Positions 1 to 49,782 of a stretch of DNA of 49,782 bases are shown here, one piece after another. Under the pieces are notes generated by a model. That model made no database searches. It was not told the origin of the DNA and saw only the letters and a program-made list of their open reading frames with translations. The stretch is from positions 1 to 49,782 of IMG/VR virus record IMGVR_UViG_3300048839_000572. One strand, written 5' to 3'. This DNA is from a virus. The position numbers were made by a program, and so were the translations under genes. Each line of letters starts with the position of its first letter. Position 1 is the stretch's first letter.

Positions 1-165
1 GTTATAGTAACTCCAGACTGAACTCCAGACTGAACTCTCGACTGAACTCCAGACTGAACTCCTGACTGAACTCCAGACTGAACTCTCGACTGAACTCCTG
101 ACTGAACTCCAGACTGAACTCCAGACTGAACTCTCGACTGAACTCCAGACTGAATTCCAGACTGA
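1..165. repeat. terminal overlap of circular contig (left copy)
   Basis: Positions 1-165 match 49618-49782 over the whole 165 bases with three mismatches, all in the second and third 12-bp units of the array. Both copies start with GTTATAGTAA and then enter the CTCCAGACTGAA-type array. The simplest reading is that the genome is circular or terminally redundant and was cut inside a repeat the assembler could not resolve. A true terminal repeat is possible but less likely, because the junction lies inside a coding frame that continues across it. Confidence 0.9.
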
Positions 166-507
166 ACTCCAGACTGAATTCCAGACTGAACTCCTGACTG
201 AACTCTCGACTGAACTCCTGACTGAACTCCAGACTGAACTCTCGACTGAACTCCCGACTGAATTCCCGACTGAATCAGCCTTATACGCACACATAGCTTC
301 TGGAGATTTGAACCATCTTATTTTCTTAGGTAGTTTAGTACCGCTAATTTTATAAGCGTTGATAGCGTATTTCTCCACTTCTCTTCTGTTAGTCTTTTCT
401 GTTGAGAGAAACTTTTTAATCTGCTCATTAGCATATTTTTCTGCCTCTACTAATTGTTCGGGAGTTAGCTCGGTTTGTTCTCTGGTTATTCTAAGTGATT
501 TTTTCAT
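1..507 (-). CDS. DUF6745-like repeat protein, N-terminal part (continues at 49782)
   Basis: Start ATG at 507, preceded by AAAGGA and overlapping the upstream stop as TAATG. The first 78 residues are charged and helical-looking (start MKKSLRITREQ, end MCAYKAD). The frame then runs into the SVxS array without a stop to the contig edge, and continues in the same frame at 49782-49021. With 22 repeats the whole protein would be about 367 residues. From memory of the family, bacterial DUF6745 proteins have a similar low-complexity SV-rich repeat before a conserved C-terminal domain; their function is not known to me. Co-transcribed with a small His-rich partner (507-806). Confidence 0.85.
   Translation of the reverse strand, partial: MKKSLRITREQTELTPEQLVEAEKYANEQIKKFLSTEKTNRREVEKYAINAYKISGTKLPKKIRWFKSPEAMCAYKADSVGNSVGSSVESSVWSSVRSSVESSVRSSVWNSVWSSVWNSVWSSVESSVWSSVWSSVRSSVESSVWSSVRSSVWSSVESSVWSSVWSYYN
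11..274 (-). repeat. 12-bp tandem array, 22 units, encoding SVxS
   Basis: Twenty-two contiguous 12-bp units of the form CTCnnGACTGAA (plus strand). On the minus strand each reads TCA GTC nnG AGT, that is Ser-Val-X-Ser. X is Trp (TGG), Arg (AGG), Glu (GAG) or Gly (GGG); in three units the final Ser (AGT) is Asn (AAT). In protein order X reads G G E W R E R W W W W E W W R E W R W E W W. The rest of each unit is identical at DNA level, so variation is focused on one codon. A second partial copy is at 49628-49782. Confidence 0.95.
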
Positions 508-7528: not shown

Positions 7529-8788
7529 TTATCTCCTTGTAAGCTCGTCACCTAATAATCTTTTTGGTCGCAATACATGGCTGTAGAGCTCTTTTTGGTG
7601 AAATCCTGTTCTGTAGGTGTTGCTCACAACATCCCACTTGCCGTCAATTTTGGTAACAGCAATGCTCTCTAGTTTACCCATTGTTTTTATATTGCCAACA
7701 AAATCATATACTGTACAAGTTCTTTTACCAGGAGCTATTCTCGCACCTCGCCCGAGCAACTGACTCCACAATCTCAAGCTTTTTGTTGGTCTTAGGCTGA
7801 CGATACAATCTAGTTCTGGTACATCAAAACCAACTGCGAAGATCAGAACACCGAACAACACCCGAATATCTCCACTCTTAAAGCTGTTGATGATACTTGC
7901 TCGCTCTTTCTTTTTTGTTTGTGAGGTAACTACCGCTGATCCTTCCACCAGGCTGCTCAACTTTGTTGCCTGTTCAATAGACGAACAAAACACCAACACT
8001 CTTTTGTGGTTCAGACCACCAATGAATGAAGCATACAGCGTGTAATCGTTGCACAACTCATCAAAAGCTTCTAGGTCAAAGTCACTCTTGCTTTTATTGG
8101 TTGGGATTTGGTCGTGGTCAATCACACTAACATCTTGGTAGGTTAGTTTGGTCAAATATCCCTCTTCTTGCAACTCCTTGGTGTTGAGGACATACAACAT
8201 TCTAGTCCAAAAGAAAACTCCGTTCTTGGGCTTGAACCTGTTTATCATTTTAATGCAGGTTACAACCTCTAGGTTTTTCTTCTGCCAGAACTTCCCAGTG
8301 TAGCCGCTCCAACCATTCGGGTTTCTGTAAAAGCTTGACATTCTATATGGCGAGCCCGTCAGTCCGTACACTTTCTTTATCCCAGCTCCCTTGAACAGCT
8401 TTGAGTACATATTGCTTTCTTCGACATTGAACAAATCACACTCATCGAGTATCACCAGATCAATGCTTCTAAATAACCCTGGGTCTTTGTGTACCGATTG
8501 GATCGTGCCAATGGTTATGTGTTTGACCTCCTTGGTGTTCATGCTGGCTGAATAAACTCCGATGTCATCACCAATAACCGCCTTGAGTTTCTCTAGGTTT
8601 TGTTCTAGCAATTCCTTACTGGGTACAAGGATCAGAATTGGCTCATCTAGTCTGCGGGCTAGTTCTGCAATAATAATTGATTTTCCCGCTCCTTGGCAAA
8701 TAGACAGTAGTTCGTTGCCCTCTTGCTCTCTAGCCAACACCATTTTCTGTACTATTCTTTCCTGATAACCCCTGAGTTCGTACTGCAT
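7529..8788 (-). CDS. SF2 DNA helicase
   Basis: 419 aa; ATG 8788 with AAGGAATTACAAA before it. Motifs in order: ELRGYQ Q-like start, motif I CQGAGKS (~30), motif Ia LVPSKELL, motif II DECD, motif III TGSPYR, a C-terminal RecA-like lobe with VLVFCSSIEQA, motif V FAVGFDVPELD and motif VI LLGRGARIAPGK. This is the layout of DEAD/DEAH type III-restriction-like helicases such as phage UvsW-type enzymes. Ends one base before the recA start, so the two are likely translated together; a role in branch migration or D-loop processing is inferred. Confidence 0.88.
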   Translation of the reverse strand: MQYELRGYQERIVQKMVLAREQEGNELLSICQGAGKSIIIAELARRLDEPILILVPSKELLEQNLEKLKAVIGDDIGVYSASMNTKEVKHITIGTIQSVHKDPGLFRSIDLVILDECDLFNVEESNMYSKLFKGAGIKKVYGLTGSPYRMSSFYRNPNGWSGYTGKFWQKKNLEVVTCIKMINRFKPKNGVFFWTRMLYVLNTKELQEEGYLTKLTYQDVSVIDHDQIPTNKSKSDFDLEAFDELCNDYTLYASFIGGLNHKRVLVFCSSIEQATKLSSLVEGSAVVTSQTKKKERASIINSFKSGDIRVLFGVLIFAVGFDVPELDCIVSLRPTKSLRLWSQLLGRGARIAPGKRTCTVYDFVGNIKTMGKLESIAVTKIDGKWDVVSNTYRTGFHQKELYSHVLRPKRLLGDELTRR

Positions 8789-9122
8789 TTTGTAATTCCT
8801 TATAATGTTTAGACTTACTCCTAATCTCCCTGATGTACCACTCCTTATTGTTTACCAACACTTTTGCATATTGGTTGATGGTTTTATAAGCGGTCTTTCT
8901 GAGCTCAACAGCTCCCTTGACTTCAAACAAGGTGTGTCTAAAGTAATAGAAGTCTTTCGACAACTTTACTATTTCCCCTGGCTGTGCATAAAACAACTGG
9001 GCCAAGACTCCCTGCTTACCTAAGTTCAAACCTCTTCGCGTCTTTTGTTTTAGCTGGTCTTTGCCTTCCAAGGGCTTCCCAGACTGATTGCTTAACTGCT
9101 TTGAGCTGCGTTGCATAGCCAT
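8730..9122 (-). CDS. hypothetical protein, 130 aa, long overlaps
   Basis: ATG 9122 has GGAG 6 nt upstream, but the first ~35 residues overlap the DUF5659-like gene by 107 bases in another frame, and the last ~19 overlap the SF2 helicase. The middle (VLAQLFYAQPGEIVKLSKDFYYFRHTLFEVKGAVEL, given here in outline) looks like a globular domain. A later TTG start near 9010 with GGGAG upstream would remove the first overlap. No family recognised. Confidence 0.5.
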   Translation of the reverse strand: MAMQRSSKQLSNQSGKPLEGKDQLKQKTRRGLNLGKQGVLAQLFYAQPGEIVKLSKDFYYFRHTLFEVKGAVELRKTAYKTINQYAKVLVNNKEWYIREIRSKSKHYKELQNAVRTQGLSGKNSTENGVG

Positions 9123-9300
9123 ATAAAGCTCCTTCCATCCTGTTGTTAAAAAAATCTTGTTGTAGATCCATCAGGTCTTCCGTACTATCAAAGATAAAGA
9201 AAACATCGCCGTTTTCAACTAGTCTTTCTCTTGGCTTGTAACCTTTTTGCATGAGAGCCGCCACAAACTTCGTATCTTTTGTTTTGAACAATTCCATCAT
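9016..9300 (-). CDS. DUF5659-like small protein
   Basis: 94 aa. The pattern ELFKTKDTKFVAALMQKGY, then GDVFFIFDSTEDLMDL and DFFNN followed by a helix, is the one I associate with DUF5659, a small phage and bacterial domain of unknown function. Overlaps its upstream neighbour's stop by four bases. The end overlaps the next gene by 107 bases. Confidence 0.6.
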   Translation of the reverse strand: MMELFKTKDTKFVAALMQKGYKPRERLVENGDVFFIFDSTEDLMDLQQDFFNNRMEGALYGYATQLKAVKQSVWEALGRQRPAKTKDAKRFELR

Positions 9301-9497
9301 ATTTCATATCCCTCACTACTTAATAAATCCAACAACCTTCCAAACGCTTCTTGGCGTTTCTCTGGGTCTGCCATTGTGTCTGGGTAGTCATCGTCTAATA
9401 AGCTGTCCTCGTTTTCTATTACCATGTGATCTATAAGTTCTTCAAAAACTTCTAAAAACTCACTGTTTTTTGTTGGCGTTGTTCTTAGGTGTGTCAT
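9297..9497 (-). CDS. hypothetical acidic protein, 66 aa
   Basis: Very acidic (VIENEDSLLDDDYPDTMADPE), helical at both ends, ending LLDLLSSEGYEI. Lies between the PD-(D/E)XK nuclease and the DUF5659-like gene with 3-4 base overlaps. Could be a DNA mimic or a nuclease partner, on composition only. Confidence 0.6.
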   Translation of the reverse strand: MTHLRTTPTKNSEFLEVFEELIDHMVIENEDSLLDDDYPDTMADPEKRQEAFGRLLDLLSSEGYEI

Positions 9498-9499
9498 AT

Positions 9500-10192
9500 T
9501 TAATATCCTACTTTTAATAATTTCTCTTGATTAACATACTCGTACACTCGTTTACAGGCTAAGAACGCCTCAAAATCGTCTGGCATTGTCTGAAATTTAT
9601 ATTTGCCCGTTGGCTTGCCGTCTTTGCCTGTTTCAAGCAGTAAGGTTGCAATCTCATCAACTGGTGCTTCCTTTCGTTTCATGTGGGCATAAGCAGACAT
9701 CTGTAGCCCTGACTCCATGTAAATGTCCTTGCCTGTTTTAACATCAACAACCATGTGTTTGCCGCCAATTTTGGCATACATATCAAGCGTACCCGCAATT
9801 TTGTGTTCTTTATCAACCATGCTCTTTTCGCTCTCAAGTATCTGGATGTTGTGATCGCCCATGAAATCGTAGAACGCCATTGCATAATCTCTGAAGTCTA
9901 TAGGAATATTCTCAATCCTCTTTTCAGTAGACTTGAACGCTTCCACAATGCTGTGTACGGTTGTGCCTCGGCTCTTTGCCTTGTCACTCGTTTTATATGG
10001 CATTGCCAGGGCTGATCTTTCGTCCATGCTCGGGTCTTGCAACATTCCATAGTAAACCTCTCGCCCGAACCAGTACATCAATGCGGGTTTATCAATCACT
10101 TTTAGAATAGTTGTTACTGATAGATATGGTTTGCCCTCAAGCCAGTAAAAACCACCGCGTCTTTGTTCAATCATTGCATTTTTAACTGACAT
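9500..10192 (-). CDS. PD-(D/E)XK nuclease, RecB/Cas4-like
   Basis: 230 aa from ATG 10192 (AAAGGTGAAG in front); a GTG two codons earlier is possible. Motifs: SVTTIL near residue 25, GTTVHSIVE (77-84), Glu at 120/122, GTLDMY (135-140) supplying the catalytic Asp, and VVDVKTGK (148-155) with D150 and K152, followed by an LQMSAYA helix. This is the typical phage exonuclease of the Cas4/RecB/AddB group, which degrades or resects DNA ends. Same operon as recA and the SF2 helicase. Confidence 0.85.
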   Translation of the reverse strand: MSVKNAMIEQRRGGFYWLEGKPYLSVTTILKVIDKPALMYWFGREVYYGMLQDPSMDERSALAMPYKTSDKAKSRGTTVHSIVEAFKSTEKRIENIPIDFRDYAMAFYDFMGDHNIQILESEKSMVDKEHKIAGTLDMYAKIGGKHMVVDVKTGKDIYMESGLQMSAYAHMKRKEAPVDEIATLLLETGKDGKPTGKYKFQTMPDDFEAFLACKRVYEYVNQEKLLKVGY

Positions 10193-10334
10193 CTTCACCT
10201 TTCAGGGCATCAATTTGCCCTTGTAAATAAATAGTGGCTACTTTTATTGTCAACAAATCGTCTTCGGTATCTAATTCATAGTCCATCATCAAGGCTCGTA
10301 CTCTATTTAGTGTTCTTTCTGATATGCCTGTCAT
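10182..10334 (-). CDS. hypothetical protein, 50 aa
   Basis: ATG 10334 overlaps the preceding stop as ATGA; the end overlaps the nuclease start. Begins MTGISERTLNRVRALMMDYE, an HTH-like first helix pair, then a helix ending in LQGQIDALKGE. Function unknown. Confidence 0.6.
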   Translation of the reverse strand: MTGISERTLNRVRALMMDYELDTEDDLLTIKVATIYLQGQIDALKGEDVS

Positions 10335-10681
10335 AAAATTACGCTTTCTTTGTTAGTTGGCACATCTTTGACCAAGCCATACTCGGTGTCGGTGTCAATC
10401 AGTCTTATTGGTCTGTTGGCGTCTGCTTTGCTGCTCAATATATCCCTCAACCATTGGCATACCCAGTCTGGCTGCACAATTCCGTCTTCTTTTAGTTGTT
10501 TCTGGATATAGTCGGCAAAATCTACATAGCCTAGTTGTCGCGACATTTCATTGTTAGATACAACAAACTCATCTTTGACGTGGGTTTCAGTTGGATCGTA
10601 CTCAAGAAAAGTTATGCCGCTATCTTCTAGGTCTTCAAAATATTCGTCTTCAAGTCTGGTTTCTAATTGTTCGATTGTCAT
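10331..10681 (-). CDS. hypothetical acidic protein, 116 aa
   Basis: Start ATG 10681 behind AAAGGATTGT. Acidic N-terminus (LETRLEDEYFEDLEDSG), then a helical middle (MSRQLGYVDFADYIQKQLK, PDWVCQWLRDIL). First gene downstream of a promoter-like element at 10714-10742. No family recognised. Confidence 0.6.
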   Translation of the reverse strand: MTIEQLETRLEDEYFEDLEDSGITFLEYDPTETHVKDEFVVSNNEMSRQLGYVDFADYIQKQLKEDGIVQPDWVCQWLRDILSSKADANRPIRLIDTDTEYGLVKDVPTNKESVIL

Positions 10682-10713
10682 ACAATCCTTTATAATTAAT
10701 TAATATTGTGTAT

Positions 10714-10742
10714 AGCTTATCACAAGCTATCATTATTGTCAA
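10714..10742 (-). promoter_or_regulatory. candidate promoter TTGACA-17-TAAGCT
   Basis: Minus strand: TTGACA (10742-10737), 17-nt spacer, TAAGCT (10719-10714). It overlaps the near-palindrome AGCTTGTGATAAGCT, a possible operator. The -10 is weak. Confidence 0.45.
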
Positions 10743-10753
10743 GCATTGTTTTA

Positions 10754-10927
10754 TTAACAATGAAATACTTCACAATTTCCTTCCGCTTTATTTTCTAATA
10801 CTTCGACCAACATAAATGCTGTATCCATTGCGTTCTTCAGGGTTTCGCCCGTGCCAACATAGTTAGCATTTTGGTGTGTAAGCGTTACACGCCAACCGTT
10901 TGCGGTTTGTTCTCTTTTAATTTTCAT
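10754..10927 (-). CDS. hypothetical protein, 57 aa
   Basis: Start ATG 10927 (GAGGGGACAAA upstream), ATGA overlap with the preceding stop. Compact fold: basic first strand KIKREQTANGWRVTLTH, a GTGETLKNAMDTAF helix, ends CEVFHC with two Cys and one His. Resembles small DUF1902/HicB-like alpha-beta domains in layout; not assigned. Confidence 0.6.
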   Translation of the reverse strand: MKIKREQTANGWRVTLTHQNANYVGTGETLKNAMDTAFMLVEVLENKAEGNCEVFHC

Positions 10928-11193
10928 TTTGTCCCCTCTGGCAATCCTGCCCATTCTAGTAGTAAAGTGTCGCCTGGCTCGATAAACTCGGCTAGGCTTT
11001 GTAGCTCGGCAATCTCCTCGTAGCTTATGCGCTCGGCTTCAATCTCGCCCCTGATGTACTCAAGGCGTTTTTGGATTTTGTGTAAAGCCACTTGATAGGC
11101 AATTTCCAAAGGTAAAGGATGCTGTTTCCTGCTTTTATCATCATATTCTCTATTGAAAGCTAGTTTATAAGTTCTTCTCATTTGTTTTTTCAT
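10924..11193 (-). CDS. hypothetical coiled-coil protein, 89 aa
   Basis: ATG 11193 with AAAAGGAAACC before it. Basic start (MKKQMRRTYKLAF), then a long helix (ALHKIQKRLEYIRGEIEAER, then EEIAELQSLAEF) likely to form a coiled coil, ending LLEWAGLPEGTK. Function unknown. Confidence 0.6.
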   Translation of the reverse strand: MKKQMRRTYKLAFNREYDDKSRKQHPLPLEIAYQVALHKIQKRLEYIRGEIEAERISYEEIAELQSLAEFIEPGDTLLLEWAGLPEGTK

Positions 11194-13905: not shown

Positions 13906-14610
13906 ATGCTAAGCGTTGTCATCCCAGTGCACAATTCCCTGCCTACTCTGAAGACCACTATTCAGTCGGTTCTGGATAATACCAAGAGACTAAAGGAGTT
14001 GATTATAGTTGACGACTTTTCCAACGGGGTGACGAAGGATTGGATTGGAAACCTGAATCTGGATCACACCCTAGGCATCACCCTGATTAAAGCAAGTCTC
14101 CCCAAGCACTCCTGGACCAATAAAGCCTGGAATACTGGAGTAGCCCTAGCTAGTCAGCCATATATTGCCGTGCTTAATTCAGACATTACTCTTTCGAAAG
14201 ATTGGGATATACCATTGATTGACGCGCTTTATGGGTACACAATTGCTTGCCCCTCTCTGCCAGACTGTTCTATCGCGCCCTTTATGAAAGAGATTGACCC
14301 GAGGATGATCCAGGGCTGCGCCTTTATGTTTGAAAAAGAAGATCGAGATATTCTGTTTCCAATACCAGAGGAACTTGTTCACTGGCATGGAGATCGGCTA
14401 CTTGCTGATCGCGCCAACGCCATGAACGGAGTGTGTATCTCTTCTCTAGCAATCGTTACACACGAACCATCGAGTTCAGCCAAACTACTCAAGCCCTTTG
14501 AATACTACAAGACTGTACTTGAGGACTGTTATGCCTACGAGAAAATGACTGGTAAAGACGAATCTATCGTTAAAGACATTATTTGGGAAAATATTAAGAA
14601 TCTTACTTGA
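13906..14610 (+). CDS. family 2-like glycosyltransferase (GT-A)
   Basis: 234 aa. GT-A start MLSVVIPVHNS, nucleotide-binding DDFS at 36-39, and the metal-binding NSDI at 91-94 in place of DxD. A later GCAFMFEKED acceptor-side strand fits the fold. Cytoplasmic, no membrane segment. Probably moves a sugar from an NDP-sugar to phage or host surface material; the acceptor cannot be read from the sequence. First of a cluster of four sugar-transfer genes. Confidence 0.8.
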   Translation: MLSVVIPVHNSLPTLKTTIQSVLDNTKRLKELIIVDDFSNGVTKDWIGNLNLDHTLGITLIKASLPKHSWTNKAWNTGVALASQPYIAVLNSDITLSKDWDIPLIDALYGYTIACPSLPDCSIAPFMKEIDPRMIQGCAFMFEKEDRDILFPIPEELVHWHGDRLLADRANAMNGVCISSLAIVTHEPSSSAKLLKPFEYYKTVLEDCYAYEKMTGKDESIVKDIIWENIKNLT

Positions 14611-26430: not shown

Positions 26431-27132
26431 ATGCGTGAAACAAATCAAGTTATAAGAACTATGGGCGATGTAATGAGATATGTGATGGCTCCGTCAGCAG
26501 GAGGAACTGTCCCTGGAAGTAATGAAGAAGAGTACGCCCAGTGGGTGTCTTGGATTCAACAAAAGCAAGAAGAGTACGCTGTCAGAGGATTCTGGCTTCG
26601 ACTCTTGACCAGAGAAACCATTTCCATTGCTGGCGACACCACTGTTTTGCCAGACAGGTTTCACAAACCCAACGGTCTTTATATTTTAGAGGTTCCAGAT
26701 CCTAATGGGGACGAGCCAATTAACTACGCTGACCCAGACGACCCACAAGTTAGTGTTGAGATGATTAGTGATCCTGAAGACGAGGACTTTGGTAAATGGC
26801 AGATGCGTTTTAAGGAAACACAGGAGACTGCTACGGCAACCATGTGGTATTTCGCAGCACCGCCAGTCCCAGAAGTAGAGTCTGACATTATCCTCTTACC
26901 AGGAGACATGGTTGGTTTTGCAGCTCTGGGCGAATACTTCAGGTCTGCTGGCGAAGACGGAAGCCAAGACAAAGCTGAAACCGATGCAGAAAACAGATTT
27001 CAAGAATACCTGACCTTAGAGCAGATCCCAGAAAGATCCAAGCTTTTAACAGTTAGTCAGAAAAGAACCGACAGAGTTAGGTACTTAAAGAATTTCTACT
27101 TTAGAAGAGATAGATTCTACAGGGGGAATTAA
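26431..27132 (+). CDS. head-tail connector / tail-tube-A-like protein
   Basis: 233 aa. Starts MRETNQVIRTMGDVMRYVMAP, then a helix with WVSWIQQKQEEYAVRGFW, a beta-rich middle (TTVLPDRFHKPNGLYIL; FKETQETATATMWYFAAPP) and a helical C-terminus ending in basic, aromatic YFRRDRFYRG. Helix-beta-helix layout and position between capsid and tail hub fit connector proteins such as T7 gp11-type adaptors. Identity by context. Confidence 0.55.
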   Translation: MRETNQVIRTMGDVMRYVMAPSAGGTVPGSNEEEYAQWVSWIQQKQEEYAVRGFWLRLLTRETISIAGDTTVLPDRFHKPNGLYILEVPDPNGDEPINYADPDDPQVSVEMISDPEDEDFGKWQMRFKETQETATATMWYFAAPPVPEVESDIILLPGDMVGFAALGEYFRSAGEDGSQDKAETDAENRFQEYLTLEQIPERSKLLTVSQKRTDRVRYLKNFYFRRDRFYRGN

Positions 27133-29192
27133 TGTTCACCAAAAAGCCGCGTCGTCCTAATCCTCCTCGAAAAAAGGCTGGGAGCAAGGGTTGGAAAGAG
27201 GGACTGAACACGCTACCCCATCCATCAATGGCTAAAGACTCGGAGCTCACCGAGTTCATCAATGGTGTTTATACCCAGTATGGAACTCTCTCCAAGAGGC
27301 TTGGAACTACCATTATTGGCAATACCGCCGATGATGCCACCAAGATCAAAACAATAAAGTCTATATATAATATAGGAGACCCCAAACACTTCAGGATTTC
27401 AGACAATGGCAAGCCAGAGGTCTATTCGTTTGCTAATCAAGTTTGGACTCCGTTCACTGGCACCGCCCCAGACGGGTATGTTGGAACCACACCAGAGTTT
27501 GTTGACGGCACACCTATTTTTGATGGAGATGTCAAAACACACATTGTCCCCCTTGCAGACTCGGTTTACTTCCTCAATGCAAGCGACCAAATGGTGTTTT
27601 GGAGAGACAATCAGTGGTATGTGTATGAACCACTAGATGATGTAGTTACCAAGCCAACTGTTGCTAAAACAGGAAGCGCCACGGGATCTACGACCTGGTT
27701 TTACTATGTGACCTACCACAATGATGTTGGCTCAACTCTGCCCACCCCATCAGCCGTTATTGGCACAGACTCTAATGGAACTGGTCACTATACTGGTATG
27801 CCTATCGAGCTGGACGACGACACCTATCTTACGGTCACAATTCCTACCGCCCCAGCAGGAACCAAGCGAATTAGCATTTATAGATCTACCACGGCTGGCA
27901 TTGGATTCTGGCTAGAAGATGTTATTGGAACTTCGACATCCTATGTAGACAAGGGGCTAAAGCAGGGCGATACCTTCTTTGGTTTGCCTAAGATGAATGA
28001 CACTGGCGGACAGAAATTTGTTCATGTCGATGTGTTTCAAGACAAGCTCATTGGTAGAACCACAGAAGGTGGAAGCCAATATCTTTATTGGGCTGGACCT
28101 CCATACGAGAATCCTGCCAACGCCCCGTCCTTCTCTCCTATGTGGGGAGGCGGCTACATTCCATATAGACTGGGCGACGGCGGTGAGGTTAGAGGAGTTC
28201 ATGCCTTTGTTAGCAGCAACGAGAATAGTCTGCTAGTTTTCAAGGACTCTGCTTTTGGTCGCCTTACCTTTGTTGAGGGTGGCGCTGCCATCCAAGACAT
28301 CAACATTGCCGTAGGCTCTCTCTCGCCCGAGTCCCTACATATCGCTGGCAACAACTTTAGGTTTTGGAGTAGAGACGGAGCTTCCTCAGTCGGACACGAA
28401 GCCAACTATGGAAACCTGCTTCGGTACTCTGTTCTCTCTCTTAGGGCTGATGCTATTGCCAGACAACTGACCGCCAAAAACCTACCCGATGTTTGCGGTG
28501 TTTATTATAGAAACCTATCTATTTTTGGACTATCAACCCAGCAAGGCCCTGGAAACAATGTTTGTTTAGTATATGACGAGAGATACAACGCATGGGTATT
28601 GTGGACTAATATCTACGCCAATTCGTTTGCCAAGATGATTTCTGATGTTGATAAGATTGAGCGACTTTACTATGCCTCAGATAGAACCGCAGATGTTCTT
28701 GAGATGTTCTCTGGTAGGACAGACTATGGAACTACTGGCAGCAATGGAACGAAGATTACCCTAAGCATTACAACCAAACAGTACGACATGGGAAGCCCAG
28801 ACGCTCTCAAGAAAATTGCCTTTGCTCGCTTTGTGTTTGGCAACTTGTTTGGCAGCAACACCTCTATTGGTGTTTCCTATTCAAACATGAGGGGCGTACA
28901 GACACTTAGCCCTCGATTTAGAATCCCTAGCGAAATCAACTCTACTGGTTTTGGGAATGTGCTTTGGGGACAAGCTCTCATGGGCGGAGAAGAGAGTGAA
29001 GACATCTCGGCTCCAGACAACTCTAATGTACGGTTTATTAATTTGCGACAGCGTGATGTGTTTTGGGTTAAGTTCAACATTCAAAATGACGGCATTACTG
29101 ACGAGATGAGCTTGCTAGGACTTTATCTATATTACTCAGACTCATCACGACAGCTCGGACACGCACTGAGAATAAGGCAGGGAACTGTTTAA
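27132..29192 (+). CDS. tail hub / stabilisation protein (tail-tube-B-like)
   Basis: 686 aa; AGGGGGAATTA before ATG 27132. Basic start (FTKKPRRPNPPRKKAGSKGW), GLNTLPHPSMAKDSELTEF, LSKRLGTT (the LxxRPGT element of podovirus stabilisation proteins), then many beta repeats such as WFYYVTYHNDVGSTLPTPSA and ISIYRSTTAGIGFW, suggesting a propeller or stacked beta fold. Likely closes the head-tail channel and forms the nozzle. Confidence 0.7.
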   Translation: MFTKKPRRPNPPRKKAGSKGWKEGLNTLPHPSMAKDSELTEFINGVYTQYGTLSKRLGTTIIGNTADDATKIKTIKSIYNIGDPKHFRISDNGKPEVYSFANQVWTPFTGTAPDGYVGTTPEFVDGTPIFDGDVKTHIVPLADSVYFLNASDQMVFWRDNQWYVYEPLDDVVTKPTVAKTGSATGSTTWFYYVTYHNDVGSTLPTPSAVIGTDSNGTGHYTGMPIELDDDTYLTVTIPTAPAGTKRISIYRSTTAGIGFWLEDVIGTSTSYVDKGLKQGDTFFGLPKMNDTGGQKFVHVDVFQDKLIGRTTEGGSQYLYWAGPPYENPANAPSFSPMWGGGYIPYRLGDGGEVRGVHAFVSSNENSLLVFKDSAFGRLTFVEGGAAIQDINIAVGSLSPESLHIAGNNFRFWSRDGASSVGHEANYGNLLRYSVLSLRADAIARQLTAKNLPDVCGVYYRNLSIFGLSTQQGPGNNVCLVYDERYNAWVLWTNIYANSFAKMISDVDKIERLYYASDRTADVLEMFSGRTDYGTTGSNGTKITLSITTKQYDMGSPDALKKIAFARFVFGNLFGSNTSIGVSYSNMRGVQTLSPRFRIPSEINSTGFGNVLWGQALMGGEESEDISAPDNSNVRFINLRQRDVFWVKFNIQNDGITDEMSLLGLYLYYSDSSRQLGHALRIRQGTV

Positions 29193-41078: not shown

Positions 41079-41936
41079 GTGCTTACAGTTATTATTCCTA
41101 GTAAGACCGAAAGGTTCTTAACCAACACAATTAAAGATGTGCTCAAGAACGCCACTGGCGAGATTGAAGTATTACCAGTTCTTGACGGCTATCGACTTCC
41201 AGACAATGAAATGGTTGATGATCCAAGGGTAAGATACTTACACCAAGAGTCAGCTCCATATACCCAAAAAAGACATGGACTTAACTTAGCTGTTTCAGAA
41301 GCTAGAGGAGAATACGTTATGGCTCTGGACGCTCACTGTATGGTCGCTTATGGCTTTGACACTCAACTGGCAAAAGACCACAAATCTAATTGGGTACAGA
41401 TCCCCAGGAGGCACAGATTGGACGCTGAGAACTGGTGCTTACAAGATCAGTCAGACAACAGACCGCCCATAGACTATGAATACATTATGTTCAGGCCTCT
41501 CTTACAGGAGATTCCATCTATTCACGGCTTTAAGTGGGATCAGCGAACTAATGAAAGAATCAGTATCGCTATTGATGACACTTTGATTTTTCAAGGATCG
41601 TGCTGGTTTATGACTAAGGACTGGTACAAGAAAAACAACTTCATGGATCTGTCTTATAAGGGCTGGGGACAAGAGGCAGAAGAAATAGGATTTACAACCA
41701 GGCTTAATGGTGGAGAAGTTAAGACTAATAAAAACACCTGGTACGCCCATCTTCATAAGGGAGAGCGGTACGGCAGAATGTATTGGATGAGCCGACATGA
41801 GAATAGACAGAGTTATCAGTATTCGGCCTCAGTCTGGCTTGATAAGAATAAAGATCACTTTATCTCAGTAATAGAACAATTCTATCCCATGCCTGGGTGG
41901 AGCAAGGATTGGAAGGACTTAATATGGAAACACTAG
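41079..41936 (+). CDS. family 2/27-like glycosyltransferase
   Basis: 285 aa; GTG 41079 with AAGGA upstream. GT-A: LTVIIPSKTERFLTNTIKD, VLDGYR, RGEYVMALDAHCMV with LDAH (83-86) as metal motif, and a GWGQEAEEIGF acceptor region with an HLHKGER end. The LDAH and GxE layout resembles polypeptide GalNAc-transferases, which sugar Ser/Thr. First of the sugar cluster that ends in the Ser-Pro fibre gene. Confidence 0.8.
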   Translation: MLTVIIPSKTERFLTNTIKDVLKNATGEIEVLPVLDGYRLPDNEMVDDPRVRYLHQESAPYTQKRHGLNLAVSEARGEYVMALDAHCMVAYGFDTQLAKDHKSNWVQIPRRHRLDAENWCLQDQSDNRPPIDYEYIMFRPLLQEIPSIHGFKWDQRTNERISIAIDDTLIFQGSCWFMTKDWYKKNNFMDLSYKGWGQEAEEIGFTTRLNGGEVKTNKNTWYAHLHKGERYGRMYWMSRHENRQSYQYSASVWLDKNKDHFISVIEQFYPMPGWSKDWKDLIWKH

Positions 41937-42538: not shown

Positions 42539-43214
42539 TATTATCATTCCAGTCTATCAGTCCCATGAGATTGTCAGGCGTCAGTTCCTTCACTTTGAGA
42601 GACTAAGGAAGAAGTATCAGTTTGAACTGATTATTGTAGATGATTGTTCTTATCCTCCGATTCCTGGTGCTATGGCCAGAACAGACAATAAGCTGGGCTG
42701 GACTCAGGGATTAGCCAGAAACTTAGGTGCAAGTATGGCGACTGGGGAGTATTTGTTTATGACAGATATTGACCATGTTATTTCTGAGAACGCCCTTGTT
42801 GACGCTCTCTACTTTGGTGGCAATAAGATGATTTTCAGAAGACAGATTGCAGTTTTAGATGAGAGTGGAATGATTACACAAGATAAGGAAGTCCTTTCCT
42901 CTTGGGGTTATGACAAAGAAAACCTTGACGCCTCGGTGCACGGGAATACGTTTTTAATTAAAAAAGCCGATTTTGAGGCATTAGGCGGTTACGATAAAGA
43001 GACCTGTACTCGGGGCTTTCATCCCGTCTCCAGGCGTGGGGACGATTGTTTCTTTAACGCCAAGTGGAACAAGATGTTTAGAGGACAACAGCCGACAATA
43101 GGCAGAGACATCTATGTCTTCCCTTTGGGCAGATTTAATAAGACTGGAGATTTGAATCCGTTTGGACTCTTTCATAATTTACATCACAGAGAGGAGAAAC
43201 AATGGAAGCAATAA
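42522..43214 (+). CDS. family 2 glycosyltransferase
   Basis: 230 aa. ISIIIPVYQSHEIVRRQF, VDDCS (39-43), RNLGASMATGEYLFMTDIDH with DID (82-84), then GNTFLIKKADFEALGGYDKE and RRGDDCFF with the acidic catalytic region. Typical GT2, soluble. Overlaps the next gene by 13 bases. Confidence 0.85.
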   Translation: MYNKISIIIPVYQSHEIVRRQFLHFERLRKKYQFELIIVDDCSYPPIPGAMARTDNKLGWTQGLARNLGASMATGEYLFMTDIDHVISENALVDALYFGGNKMIFRRQIAVLDESGMITQDKEVLSSWGYDKENLDASVHGNTFLIKKADFEALGGYDKETCTRGFHPVSRRGDDCFFNAKWNKMFRGQQPTIGRDIYVFPLGRFNKTGDLNPFGLFHNLHHREEKQWKQ

Positions 43215-43969
43215 TAGGCTACGGCTGGGTGGGTAAGGCTATGGGGAAACTCTTTCCTAATGCCTACATCTATGATACGGCTAGACCAATGAGCTACAAA
43301 GATAAAGTTAATGAGTGCGACGTGGCTTTTGTTTGTGTGCCAACTCCTCTCAAGGAAGACGGCTCACTTGATACCTCAATTGTTGAGGAAGTAGTCTCCT
43401 GGGTTAATTGCCCTCTGATAGTTATCAGATCAACTGTGAATCCTGGCACTTGCGACTACTTAGCCAAGAAGTATGAGAAGAACATTTGTATGCAACCTGA
43501 ATACTTGGGAGAGACTGTTGATCATCCCAGACCTCAGATCCTAGTTATTGGTGGCAAGAAGCAAGACCGCAGGACTTTAATTGAACTCTACACCAAAGTC
43601 TACAACGCTAACATTAATATCAGACAAGTCTCTCTCTATGAGGCTGAGCTGATTAAGCTGACCGAGAACAGAGCGATTGCTTTCAAGGTAATGCAGTGTC
43701 AGGAACTCTATGACGCTTGTGAGGTTTCAGGAGTTGACTATTACACCATCAGAGACGCAGTTTACGGGGATGATCCCAGGTTTAATTTATGGTGGACTTT
43801 TGTTTATCCTGCTCGTGGTTTTAACAATTCCAAGTGCTTAGTCAAAGATGTGCCAGCTTGGGCTTCCTGGGCTGAGAGCATGGGAGCAGATCCAGTATTA
43901 ACTCAGGCTCTTATAGACAAAAGCAATGAATATGCCACGACTTTCAATCTTAATTCCAGCAAGGAATGA
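43202..43969 (+). CDS. NDP-sugar dehydrogenase-like protein, shortened
   Basis: 255 aa. Rossmann start AIIGYGWVGKAMG, CDVAFVCVPTPL, VIRSTVNPGT, MQPEYLGET and YEAELIKLTENRAIAFKV, all marks of the UDP-glucose/GDP-mannose dehydrogenase family. The catalytic Cys region is present as NNSKCLVKDV. The usual third, UDP-binding domain is absent (family 380-450 aa). It may still oxidise or bind a nucleotide sugar, or use a distinct donor. Overlaps neighbours. Confidence 0.75.
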   Translation: MEAIIGYGWVGKAMGKLFPNAYIYDTARPMSYKDKVNECDVAFVCVPTPLKEDGSLDTSIVEEVVSWVNCPLIVIRSTVNPGTCDYLAKKYEKNICMQPEYLGETVDHPRPQILVIGGKKQDRRTLIELYTKVYNANINIRQVSLYEAELIKLTENRAIAFKVMQCQELYDACEVSGVDYYTIRDAVYGDDPRFNLWWTFVYPARGFNNSKCLVKDVPAWASWAESMGADPVLTQALIDKSNEYATTFNLNSSKE

Positions 43970-45536
43970 GGAATTTCTAGCTAGGACTATTGAGGATCTT
44001 CTTGAGAACATAGAGGACGATACTGAGATTTTAGTGGGTATGGATGAGAAGTGGGCTAATCCGTCCATTACAGATCATCCTAAAGTCACAGTTCTTCATA
44101 CCTCTGTCTCTATCGGCCAGAGGGCTATGACCAATCAGCTCTGCCGACTGAGCACCGCCAAGTATGTGATGAAGGTGGACGCTCATTGTGCATTTGATAA
44201 AGGTTTTGACCGCAAGCTCATGGAAGATATGCAAGACAACTGGACTGTTGTGCCTGTAATGCGGAATCTCCATGCTTTCGATTGGGTCTGTGAAAAAGGA
44301 CACCGAAGATACCAGAGTCCAAGCGGAGCCTGTAAGGAGTGTGGTGGGGAAACCCATAAAGATGTAGTTTGGATTGCCAAGACTAATCCTCAGTCAACTG
44401 CCTACTGTTTTGATCCAGAACCCCATTTTCAATATTTCGGAGAGTTTAAGAAAAGACCAGAGGGCAAGGGAGACTTAACTGAAACAATGTCGCTTCAAGG
44501 TAGTTGCTTCATGCTTACACGGGACAAATACTGGGAACTGAATATCTCAGACGAATCCTTTGGCTCATGGGGATCTCAGGGGATTGAAGTAGCCTGCAAA
44601 ACCTGGTTGTCTGGTGGCAGAGTTATGGTCAATCATAAGACCTGGTACGCTCACATGTTTAGAACTCAGGGTGGAGACTTCGGCTTTCCATATCCCCAGT
44701 CTGGCAAACAGGTGGGGAGTGCCAAGAAACTAGCCAAAGACATCTTCTTTAATAATAAGTGGGACGGACAGATTAAACCGATCTCCTGGTTGGTAGAGAA
44801 GTTCTGGCCAGTACCAGGTTGGAAGCAGGAGGACTTAGACTCAATTAAGATCTCTCCAAATAAGGGGATTCTCTACTACACCGACAACCAGATTAACATG
44901 AAACTAGCCTCAAGGGTTAGGAGTCAGATAATGAAGTCAGGCTTACCTATTGTCTCTTCAACTTTGAAACCAACTCCTTTTGGCAGAAACATTCATCTGA
45001 AGCTGGAGAGAGGCTATCTAACAATGTTCAAGCAGATCTTGGCTGGTCTTGAGGCTATGAGCCAGAACATAGTCTACTTCTGTGAGCATGATGTTTTGTA
45101 TCATCCTTCACACTTTGAGTTTACCCCTCCAGACCCATTTAAGTTCTACTACAACGGCAACTACTGGTTTTTGAGATTAAAAGACGGCTTTGCCATTCAC
45201 TATGACGTTTCACCTTTATCTGGATTGGTGGGCTACAGAGATCAGCTTATAGCACATTTCCGTGAACGGGTCGCTATGATAGAATCACTAGGAGAAGACT
45301 ACAAGCCTTTACACATGGGATTTGAACCCATGACGCACAATCGGGTTAAATGGAAAAAGAAATTTGAGTACGAGATTTTTATGCCTGAGTTTCCGAATAT
45401 AGATATTACCCACGAAGGAAACACAACTTGGAAACGCTGGAATCAGAAAGACTTTAGGAAGAAACCTAAGTTTTGGGAAGAAGGAACTATAGATTCGATA
45501 CCTGGATGGGATGATATAAGAACTATTCTAGGATAA
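43932..45536 (+). CDS. bimodular glycosyltransferase, 534 aa
   Basis: Start taken at MPRLSILIPARNE. Domain 1 (~1-290): GT-A with VGMDEKW, KVDAHCAFDKGF (VDAH 82-85) and a C-H-C-C set (C120, H124, C134, C137) that looks like an inserted zinc ribbon; then MSLQGSCFMLTRD. Domain 2 (~300-534): ILYYTDNQINMKL start, NIHLKLERGYLTMFKQILAGL and YFCEHDVLYHP with an EHD metal motif, a second transferase-like unit. May add two sugars in sequence. Directly before the Ser-Pro fibre. Confidence 0.75.
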   Translation: MPRLSILIPARNEEFLARTIEDLLENIEDDTEILVGMDEKWANPSITDHPKVTVLHTSVSIGQRAMTNQLCRLSTAKYVMKVDAHCAFDKGFDRKLMEDMQDNWTVVPVMRNLHAFDWVCEKGHRRYQSPSGACKECGGETHKDVVWIAKTNPQSTAYCFDPEPHFQYFGEFKKRPEGKGDLTETMSLQGSCFMLTRDKYWELNISDESFGSWGSQGIEVACKTWLSGGRVMVNHKTWYAHMFRTQGGDFGFPYPQSGKQVGSAKKLAKDIFFNNKWDGQIKPISWLVEKFWPVPGWKQEDLDSIKISPNKGILYYTDNQINMKLASRVRSQIMKSGLPIVSSTLKPTPFGRNIHLKLERGYLTMFKQILAGLEAMSQNIVYFCEHDVLYHPSHFEFTPPDPFKFYYNGNYWFLRLKDGFAIHYDVSPLSGLVGYRDQLIAHFRERVAMIESLGEDYKPLHMGFEPMTHNRVKWKKKFEYEIFMPEFPNIDITHEGNTTWKRWNQKDFRKKPKFWEEGTIDSIPGWDDIRTILG

Positions 45537-49020: not shown

Positions 49021-49782
49021 TTATGCCTCAATCTTCATGTTTTGGTACTCCGCCTCAGTCATGCTAAATTTCCAAGCCATACAACCATCTGCACTGCCTA
49101 ATTTACCCACCTCTGGGTCAATACCCGAAGCGTAAACCCTGCCCGTAGACGGACAACTGTATTTTAGGTAATAGGCATCTGTTTGAAAAATATCCTTGAG
49201 CAAGTAGAGTTCGTTACCTCTTTTGGACTTGTCAATTAGCTTTGAATTGGCGGTCTTGAACAGCCTCTCAACTCCAACCAACTTTAGGGCTACCATTCTT
49301 TGCTCCATGTTTTCAATGGTTAGGATAGTTTCAATTCTGGTCTGCTTGCCAGTTACTTTTTTCCATAGCTTCTCATCAAACCTGATTCCGTGAATGAGAT
49401 AATATCCCACACCGTCACGCCACTCGATTGCTTTGCCAGTAATACTATGTAATTTGCCACTCTCATCTCTGTCTAGTGTTTTAGGATGTTCGACTAGCCA
49501 GCACTCATTCTCGTAGAAAGCACATCCAGTGACATTCTCAGATAATTTTAATAACCAAACAATTTTATTCTTTTCAAAGTATTTGTGGAAGAATCCGTAG
49601 AAAGACCAACCATCTGCGTTATAGTAACTCCAGACTGAACTCCTGACTGAACTCCTGACTGAACTCCAGACTGAACTCCTGACTGAACTCCAGACTGAAC
49701 TCTCGACTGAACTCCTGACTGAACTCCAGACTGAACTCCAGACTGAACTCTCGACTGAACTCCAGACTGAATTCCAGACTGA
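49021..49782 (-). CDS. DUF6745-like repeat protein, C-terminal part (continues from position 1)
   Basis: The array frame ends SVWS and passes directly into a ~200-residue globular domain. It contains WLVEHPKTLDRDESGKLH, then an IEWRDGVGYYLIHGIRFD segment, an ENMEQRMVALKLVGVERL helix and a final AWKFSMTEAEY. This order of elements is the one I associate with DUF6745. No catalytic motif is evident. The stop at 49021-49023 is directly followed by the start of a 37-aa membrane protein. A shorter reading starting at the Met of MGYYLIHG (49410) would be a truncation artefact of the contig edge. Confidence 0.8.
   Translation of the reverse strand, partial: SVWNSVWSSVESSVWSSVWSSVRSSVESSVWSSVRSSVWSSVRSSVRSSVWSYYNADGWSFYGFFHKYFEKNKIVWLLKLSENVTGCAFYENECWLVEHPKTLDRDESGKLHSITGKAIEWRDGVGYYLIHGIRFDEKLWKKVTGKQTRIETILTIENMEQRMVALKLVGVERLFKTANSKLIDKSKRGNELYLLKDIFQTDAYYLKYSCPSTGRVYASGIDPEVGKLGSADGCMAWKFSMTEAEYQNMKIEA
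49618..49782. repeat. terminal overlap of circular contig (right copy)
   Basis: Right-hand copy of the 165-base segment found at 1-165. It differs at three bases, which change two repeat units on the minus strand: unit 2 encodes R instead of W and unit 3 encodes R instead of E. All other units agree. Confidence 0.9.
49628..49782 (-). repeat. 12-bp tandem array, right copy
   Basis: Thirteen units of the SVxS array as read at the other contig end. In plus-strand order X is W R R W R W E R W W E W W; the left copy reads W W E W R W E R W W E W W. The two disagreements both fall in the X codon. Confidence 0.9.

Follow-up and report, generated by a model that had tools for sequence, protein, structure and literature searches.

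The window, that is, the whole stretch of 49,782 nucleotides analysed here (IMG/VR record IMGVR_UViG_3300048839_000572, classed as a linear virus record), begins and ends within the same minus-strand gene. From an ATG at position 507, preceded by a Shine-Dalgarno-like AAAGGA read in the sequence at 511-516 on that strand, a frame of 169 residues runs without a stop to position 1; at the opposite edge, a frame on the same strand, open at 49782, ends with a stop at 49021 (253 residues). Residues 1-78 (274-507, minus strand) constitute an N-terminal domain that is conserved in phage relatives and of which residues 16-66 were mostly confidently modelled by AlphaFold2 in an intact copy of the gene. 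Adjoining this domain is an array of 22 units of 12 bp (10-273, minus strand), delimited by TRF and by alignment to the intact copy. TRF itself reported 22.2 copies of the 12-bp unit at 9-274 and 13.1 copies at 49626-49782, and the same two lines of evidence place 13 array units of the other contig end at 49627-49782, also on the minus strand. The unit reads TCA GTC xyG AGT/AAT, encoding S-V-[W/R/E/G]-[S/N]. The remaining C-terminal part, from YYNADGW to the stop (49021-49626, minus strand), contains a match to DUF6745 (PF20530) at 49033-49521. The product of 49021-49782 scores 41.6 bits against this family (E 1.1e-10; Pfam curated cut-off 27), and the intact copy scores 40.2 bits against the same cut-off of 27 bits. 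Both open edges and the DUF6745 likeness of the C-terminal domain had been proposed in a first-pass annotation and are borne out by these results; its view that W/R/E/G forms the only variable column is not, given that the fourth residue alternates between S and N (AGT/AAT).

The intact copy resides in a second, near-identical IMG/VR contig of 39339 bp (IMGVR_UViG_3300048837_000792, hereafter G001; the locus itself is L002) and encodes 367 residues with 22 units. Bases 1-8009 of L002 align to window positions 8009-1, and bases 7845-11033 align to positions 49782-46594. Since these two alignments share 165 bases, the window is, as judged by alignment, a genome that is closed or circularly permuted and whose ends duplicate about 165 bases. 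Relative to L002, positions 1-165 (the left copy, minus strand) and 49618-49782 are two versions of one stretch, in register: the last 126 bases of the window (49657-49782) are an exact copy of 40-165, and 49618-49643 is identical to 1-26. The earlier placement of the contig junction inside one DUF6745-like gene was thus correct in that a single gene spans the contig ends, but these ends overlap and are not adjacent. Because they overlap in register, end-to-end joining, through which the whole gene was expected to emerge, is wrong; it is in frame by chance and yields 35 units together with an internal YYN, whereas the intact copy in G001 has 22 units and lacks the internal YYN. The final 127-mer of the window contains the last base distinguishing the two array versions, a pattern that, we infer, reflects short-read assembly at k = 127 with the contig cut where the repeat forks.

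Elsewhere, the window encodes SU10-like portal and major capsid proteins, a terminase, replication genes and an endolysin, as well as an adaptor-like protein that falls below the Pfam cut-off. Three glycosyltransferase-2 genes and a UDP-glucose/GDP-mannose dehydrogenase-like gene (13906-14610, 41079-41936, 43926-45536 and 43202-43969) are also present, suggesting surface sugar modification in this 50-kb phage. The gene at the contig ends is probably not a virion gene; we describe it as a phage gene of the DUF6745 family, composed of an N-terminal domain, an internal 22-unit array and a DUF6745 C-terminal domain.

This layout of an N-terminal domain preceding a C domain above the curated cut-off is common to phage and bacterial DUF6745 members, as indicated by alignments with relatives and by the modelled region 16-66. 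DUF6745 relatives turned up at 25 loci in one motif scan of IMG/VR. The window protein also has matches in ten annotated phage records, of which eight are Microcystis phages, and a second query added a relative in a Mycobacterium abscessus prophage. Among 396 sampled bacterial genomes from a single phylum (the one to which an Actinomycetes MAG belongs), 11 gave a match, and so did 12 plasmid records. Arrays are present in many phage and bacterial relatives, and a phage copy of such a gene, previously considered unusual, is not unusual, judging from both the IMG/VR loci and the annotated phage records. The family also has members of a different kind. The DUF6745 genes looked at in Streptomyces, Deinococcus and Methylobacterium plasmids mostly adjoin STM4011-STM4015 genes, and the array is absent from those of their proteins that were read. 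At L029, L030, L033 and L082, bacterial DUF6745 genes lie beside STM4011-STM4015 (radical SAM, hydrolase and others), downstream of a gene of about 100 residues. The N part of the Deinococcus protein appears leucine-rich-repeat-like by eye and has no Pfam match. Among annotated DUF6745 phage proteins, gp174 of Microcystis phage LMM01 was the best match in a viral structure library (E 1e-12); unlike the window protein, gp174 and its relatives possess ordinary sequence in place of an array. The literature collection searched contained nothing relevant on DUF6745, STM4015, SVWDSV or tetrapeptide-repeat phage proteins.

Comparison of the window with G001 revealed three array versions, all of the same length: one in G001 and two at the window ends, the latter coming from an assembly in which library PCR or repeat misassembly could create some versions. 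Units 1-18 are identical in all three as far as they are visible, the right end showing units 10-22 only. In G001, units 19-22 are E, R, WN, W; the left end has W, E, W, W and the right end W, R, R, W. The difference between the window ends at units 20-21 (E-W versus R-R) had been overlooked in the first-pass annotation; the hypervariability it ascribed to the array is supported by three versions in near-clonal genomes. All differences between versions are confined to the variable codon or the AGT/AAT column, and the 22 units are kept. There are zero differences between the window and G001 in the 11 kb around the array, and over 39.3 kb the differences are limited to array units 19-21 and a single further gene, 27132-29192. 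That gene (686 residues, without a family match) carries a differing tract from 27848 to about 28010, plus bases 28546 and 28866, and the window/G001 substitutions listed in it are all transitions; the tract at 27848-28010 is perhaps a recombined one in a virion or host-contact gene. In G001, units 16-22 equal units 3-9, a 7-unit block unmatched in 2000 shuffles, which suggests block copying.

Close-relative scans of IMG/VR for more allele pairs yielded L040/L041 only. These two phages share 91% identity in C-domain DNA, with 43 synonymous changes, and have the skeleton TCGCTC in common while differing in array order. The Nocardia copies L027 and L081 contain the same array from one strain and hence do not form an allele pair. 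At about position 1110 of L027, the array on Nocardia farcinica plasmid 3 is one G short relative to the plasmid 2 copy of the same strain, shifting the frame within the gene; the missing G is likely a sequencing error.

Variation was measured over 23 arrays of 11 to 56 units each from relatives, gathered partly via the array pattern and partly via the domain, and so not a random sample. Together they contain 655 nonsynonymous variant cells on about 5501 sites and 58 synonymous ones on about 1720, and synonymous variation is absent in 18 of the 23. The unit is four residues long, or three in L004, L054 and L057, and each array has its own skeleton. Variation falls mainly on one codon, X, and mostly on its positions 1 and 2; one position of a neighbouring small-residue codon is often variable too. 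X is mostly TGG, AGG or CGG, GGG or GAG (W/R/G/E), and in some arrays TAC, CAC, AAC, GAC or GGC, with residues Y/H/N/D. The same X letters occur on different skeletons, including TCAGTC-x-AGT, TCTTTG-x-AGT, AGCCTC-x-AGC, AACTCCGTC-x and the 9-bp unit AGTGCA-x. A strict DNA-level rule for four codons, with arginine always AGG, was considered and rejected, as the Mycobacterium prophage and Nocardia arrays use CGG. In 17 of the 18 arrays where first-position A and C would both give arginine, only one arginine codon (AGG or CGG) is used, an outcome with a chance of about 10^-28 under independent equal origin and about 10^-5 with a 9:1 bias. This argues for units from few founders rather than repeated mutation: units seem to be copied from few founder types, with diversity maintained among the encoded amino acids. 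In most arrays the units follow one another in near-random order; in seven, the repeated words are longer than in shuffled versions (p below 0.05, uncorrected). Chance is excluded: in some 20 relatives, conserved domains flank arrays of about 20 short, near-perfect units. The strongest new result is the contrast that in many arrays the silent sites are frozen and the residues varied, taken with the different versions in near-clonal phages.

Arrays of this kind are not restricted to DUF6745 proteins. A second protein type carries one between its own conserved N and C parts in L008 (3945-4784), L011 (12231-13049), L015 (788-1564) and L017 (4653-6926), the last with three paralogs in a row. In the jumbo phage IMGVR_UViG_3300034012_003212 (260658 bp), 34 tandem paralogous small genes occupy 10.9 kb (L014, 1-10948); the encoded proteins are of about 48-100 residues, and most consist of MNLE..., an SVW[ND]-type array and then GLQEPIREERKRG. 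Small stand-alone SVx-array genes with their own conserved ends were also found in L006 (eight genes, 567-2500) and L013 (five genes, reverse complement, 1100-2150), and the small array protein of L006 has no match among annotated phages. The units of these other carriers and stand-alone genes are less uniform.

Structure prediction, proposed at the outset for the full protein, was run with AlphaFold2 on the intact copy: the N and C domains are mostly confident, and the array is drawn as a long helix at a pLDDT of about 30-50, placed between the first C-domain helix and the helix that follows a conserved SP motif. The picture is the same in a second model, of a protein containing 56 units, mostly QLx, in which some stretches rise to about 73. 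A hydrophobic residue every four residues drifts 40 degrees per unit around a helix, which makes a continuous one-faced helix doubtful, and the 3-residue unit of some relatives argues against one fixed repeat geometry. Among solved structures, none in the PDB matched at E <= 0.001 and VIA-align gave no Z reaching 5; sequence searches against them yielded only weak matches, mostly to ferritins. Two functional candidates were rejected. A PADLOC match to a nicking endonuclease (residues 29-160) covers mostly array and was judged a composition effect; matches of the array region alone to short stretches of PHROG 1272 and 58, which would indicate a tail tape-measure protein, were judged a composition likeness.

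The most likely mechanism is, in our view, recombinational unit shuffling combined with protein-level selection for diversity, and we give about even chances to the full proposal in which the array is also a fast-changing recognition surface. Recombination or slippage between units would continually copy and reshuffle a few unit types, and such copying would freeze the skeleton, silent positions included, while selection on the protein would keep several residue types at the variable column (W/R/G/E or Y/H/N/D). Neutral concerted evolution should homogenise X like the silent sites; that X is varied favours selection. Against this proposal, unit order in most arrays looks random and lacks the runs or block copies expected from simple slippage. 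As a weaker step, the array may carry or position the DUF6745 domain and serve as a fast-evolving recognition surface, whose partner would most likely be a protein of the host or of a rival. Such a role is plausible, and the tunable binding surface suggested in the first-pass annotation fits the pattern of amino-acid changes over frozen silent sites, with binding itself still putative. A more far-reaching version, in which the order of W/R/G/E (or Y/H/N/D) in a modular array of 3-4-residue units, rewritten by shuffling in varied carriers and stand-alone families, would specify a changing molecular target, appears rather improbable.

An array selected for mixed composition alone, serving as a helical or extended linker between domains without a specific target, is possible though on balance unlikely. 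Its position between two modelled helices, joining the N and C domains, would suit such a spacer, as would the ordinary sequence at that place in relatives without an array, the weak matches to tape-measure helices and the range in length from 11 to 56 units; a loose linker, however, should allow synonymous, skeleton and other-letter changes, and the X set is narrow in many lineages. We also consider it decidedly unlikely that the array differences between the window ends and G001 are assembly or library chimeras of one true array. The 264-bp array exceeds a typical short read, and the right end stops exactly at the end of the last 127-mer with a version-specific base, so that the contig was cut at the array repeat. 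Yet a 127-mer spans ten units, more than the longest internal repeat, both versions are equal in length and in register, and the unit pattern recurs in L025 and L031, which are annotated records, as well as in a Nocardia plasmid array found in two records.

Diversity-generating retroelements likewise vary a phage protein at chosen codons, and a phage or host mutator aimed at X in this manner could account for variation limited to one or two codon positions, for the random-looking order and for the NAY-type arrays (L039, L043, L074) that show all four first bases. We hold such programmed mutagenesis to be very unlikely. Neither the window nor five relative phage records, these possibly incomplete, gave a match to reverse transcriptase (RVT_1); the X codons TGG/AGG/GGG/GAG do not look adenine-derived by inspection, and codon use fits unit copying. 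The missing reverse transcriptase and the unmixed arginine codons in 17 of 18 arrays favour shuffling of a few unit types with selection over a mutator, and a mutational hot spot at the X codon retains a small likelihood. TAL effector repeats, in which near-identical units carry hypervariable residues of few kinds, offer a different analogy, since here too the hypervariable residue of near-identical repeats comes mostly from four letters. A code in which each X residue reads one nucleic-acid or peptide letter is nonetheless extremely unlikely: TAL effector units have 33-35 residues (about 34), two of them variable, as against four (or three) here, the other domains differ, and no nucleic-acid-binding protein gives a convincing match, in fold or in sequence, to an array whose binding is putative. 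Pentapeptide repeat proteins also comprise short units with a fixed aliphatic residue, but the period here is four or three, and neither the window protein nor the intact copy has a pentapeptide repeat match in Pfam.

Taken together, these findings place the DUF6745 array within a pattern in which one rule, silent sites frozen and one or two residues varied, spans many different phages and some bacteria. A practical consequence is that such array genes break contigs and are joined or annotated badly. In phages, hypervariability of a protein is usually a sign of contact with hosts or rivals, and near-clonal genomes already differ in the array. The occurrence of the same pattern in many unrelated phages and some bacteria suggests that evolution keeps reshuffling the array surface, and the array pattern offers a handle for finding what DUF6745 proteins recognise.
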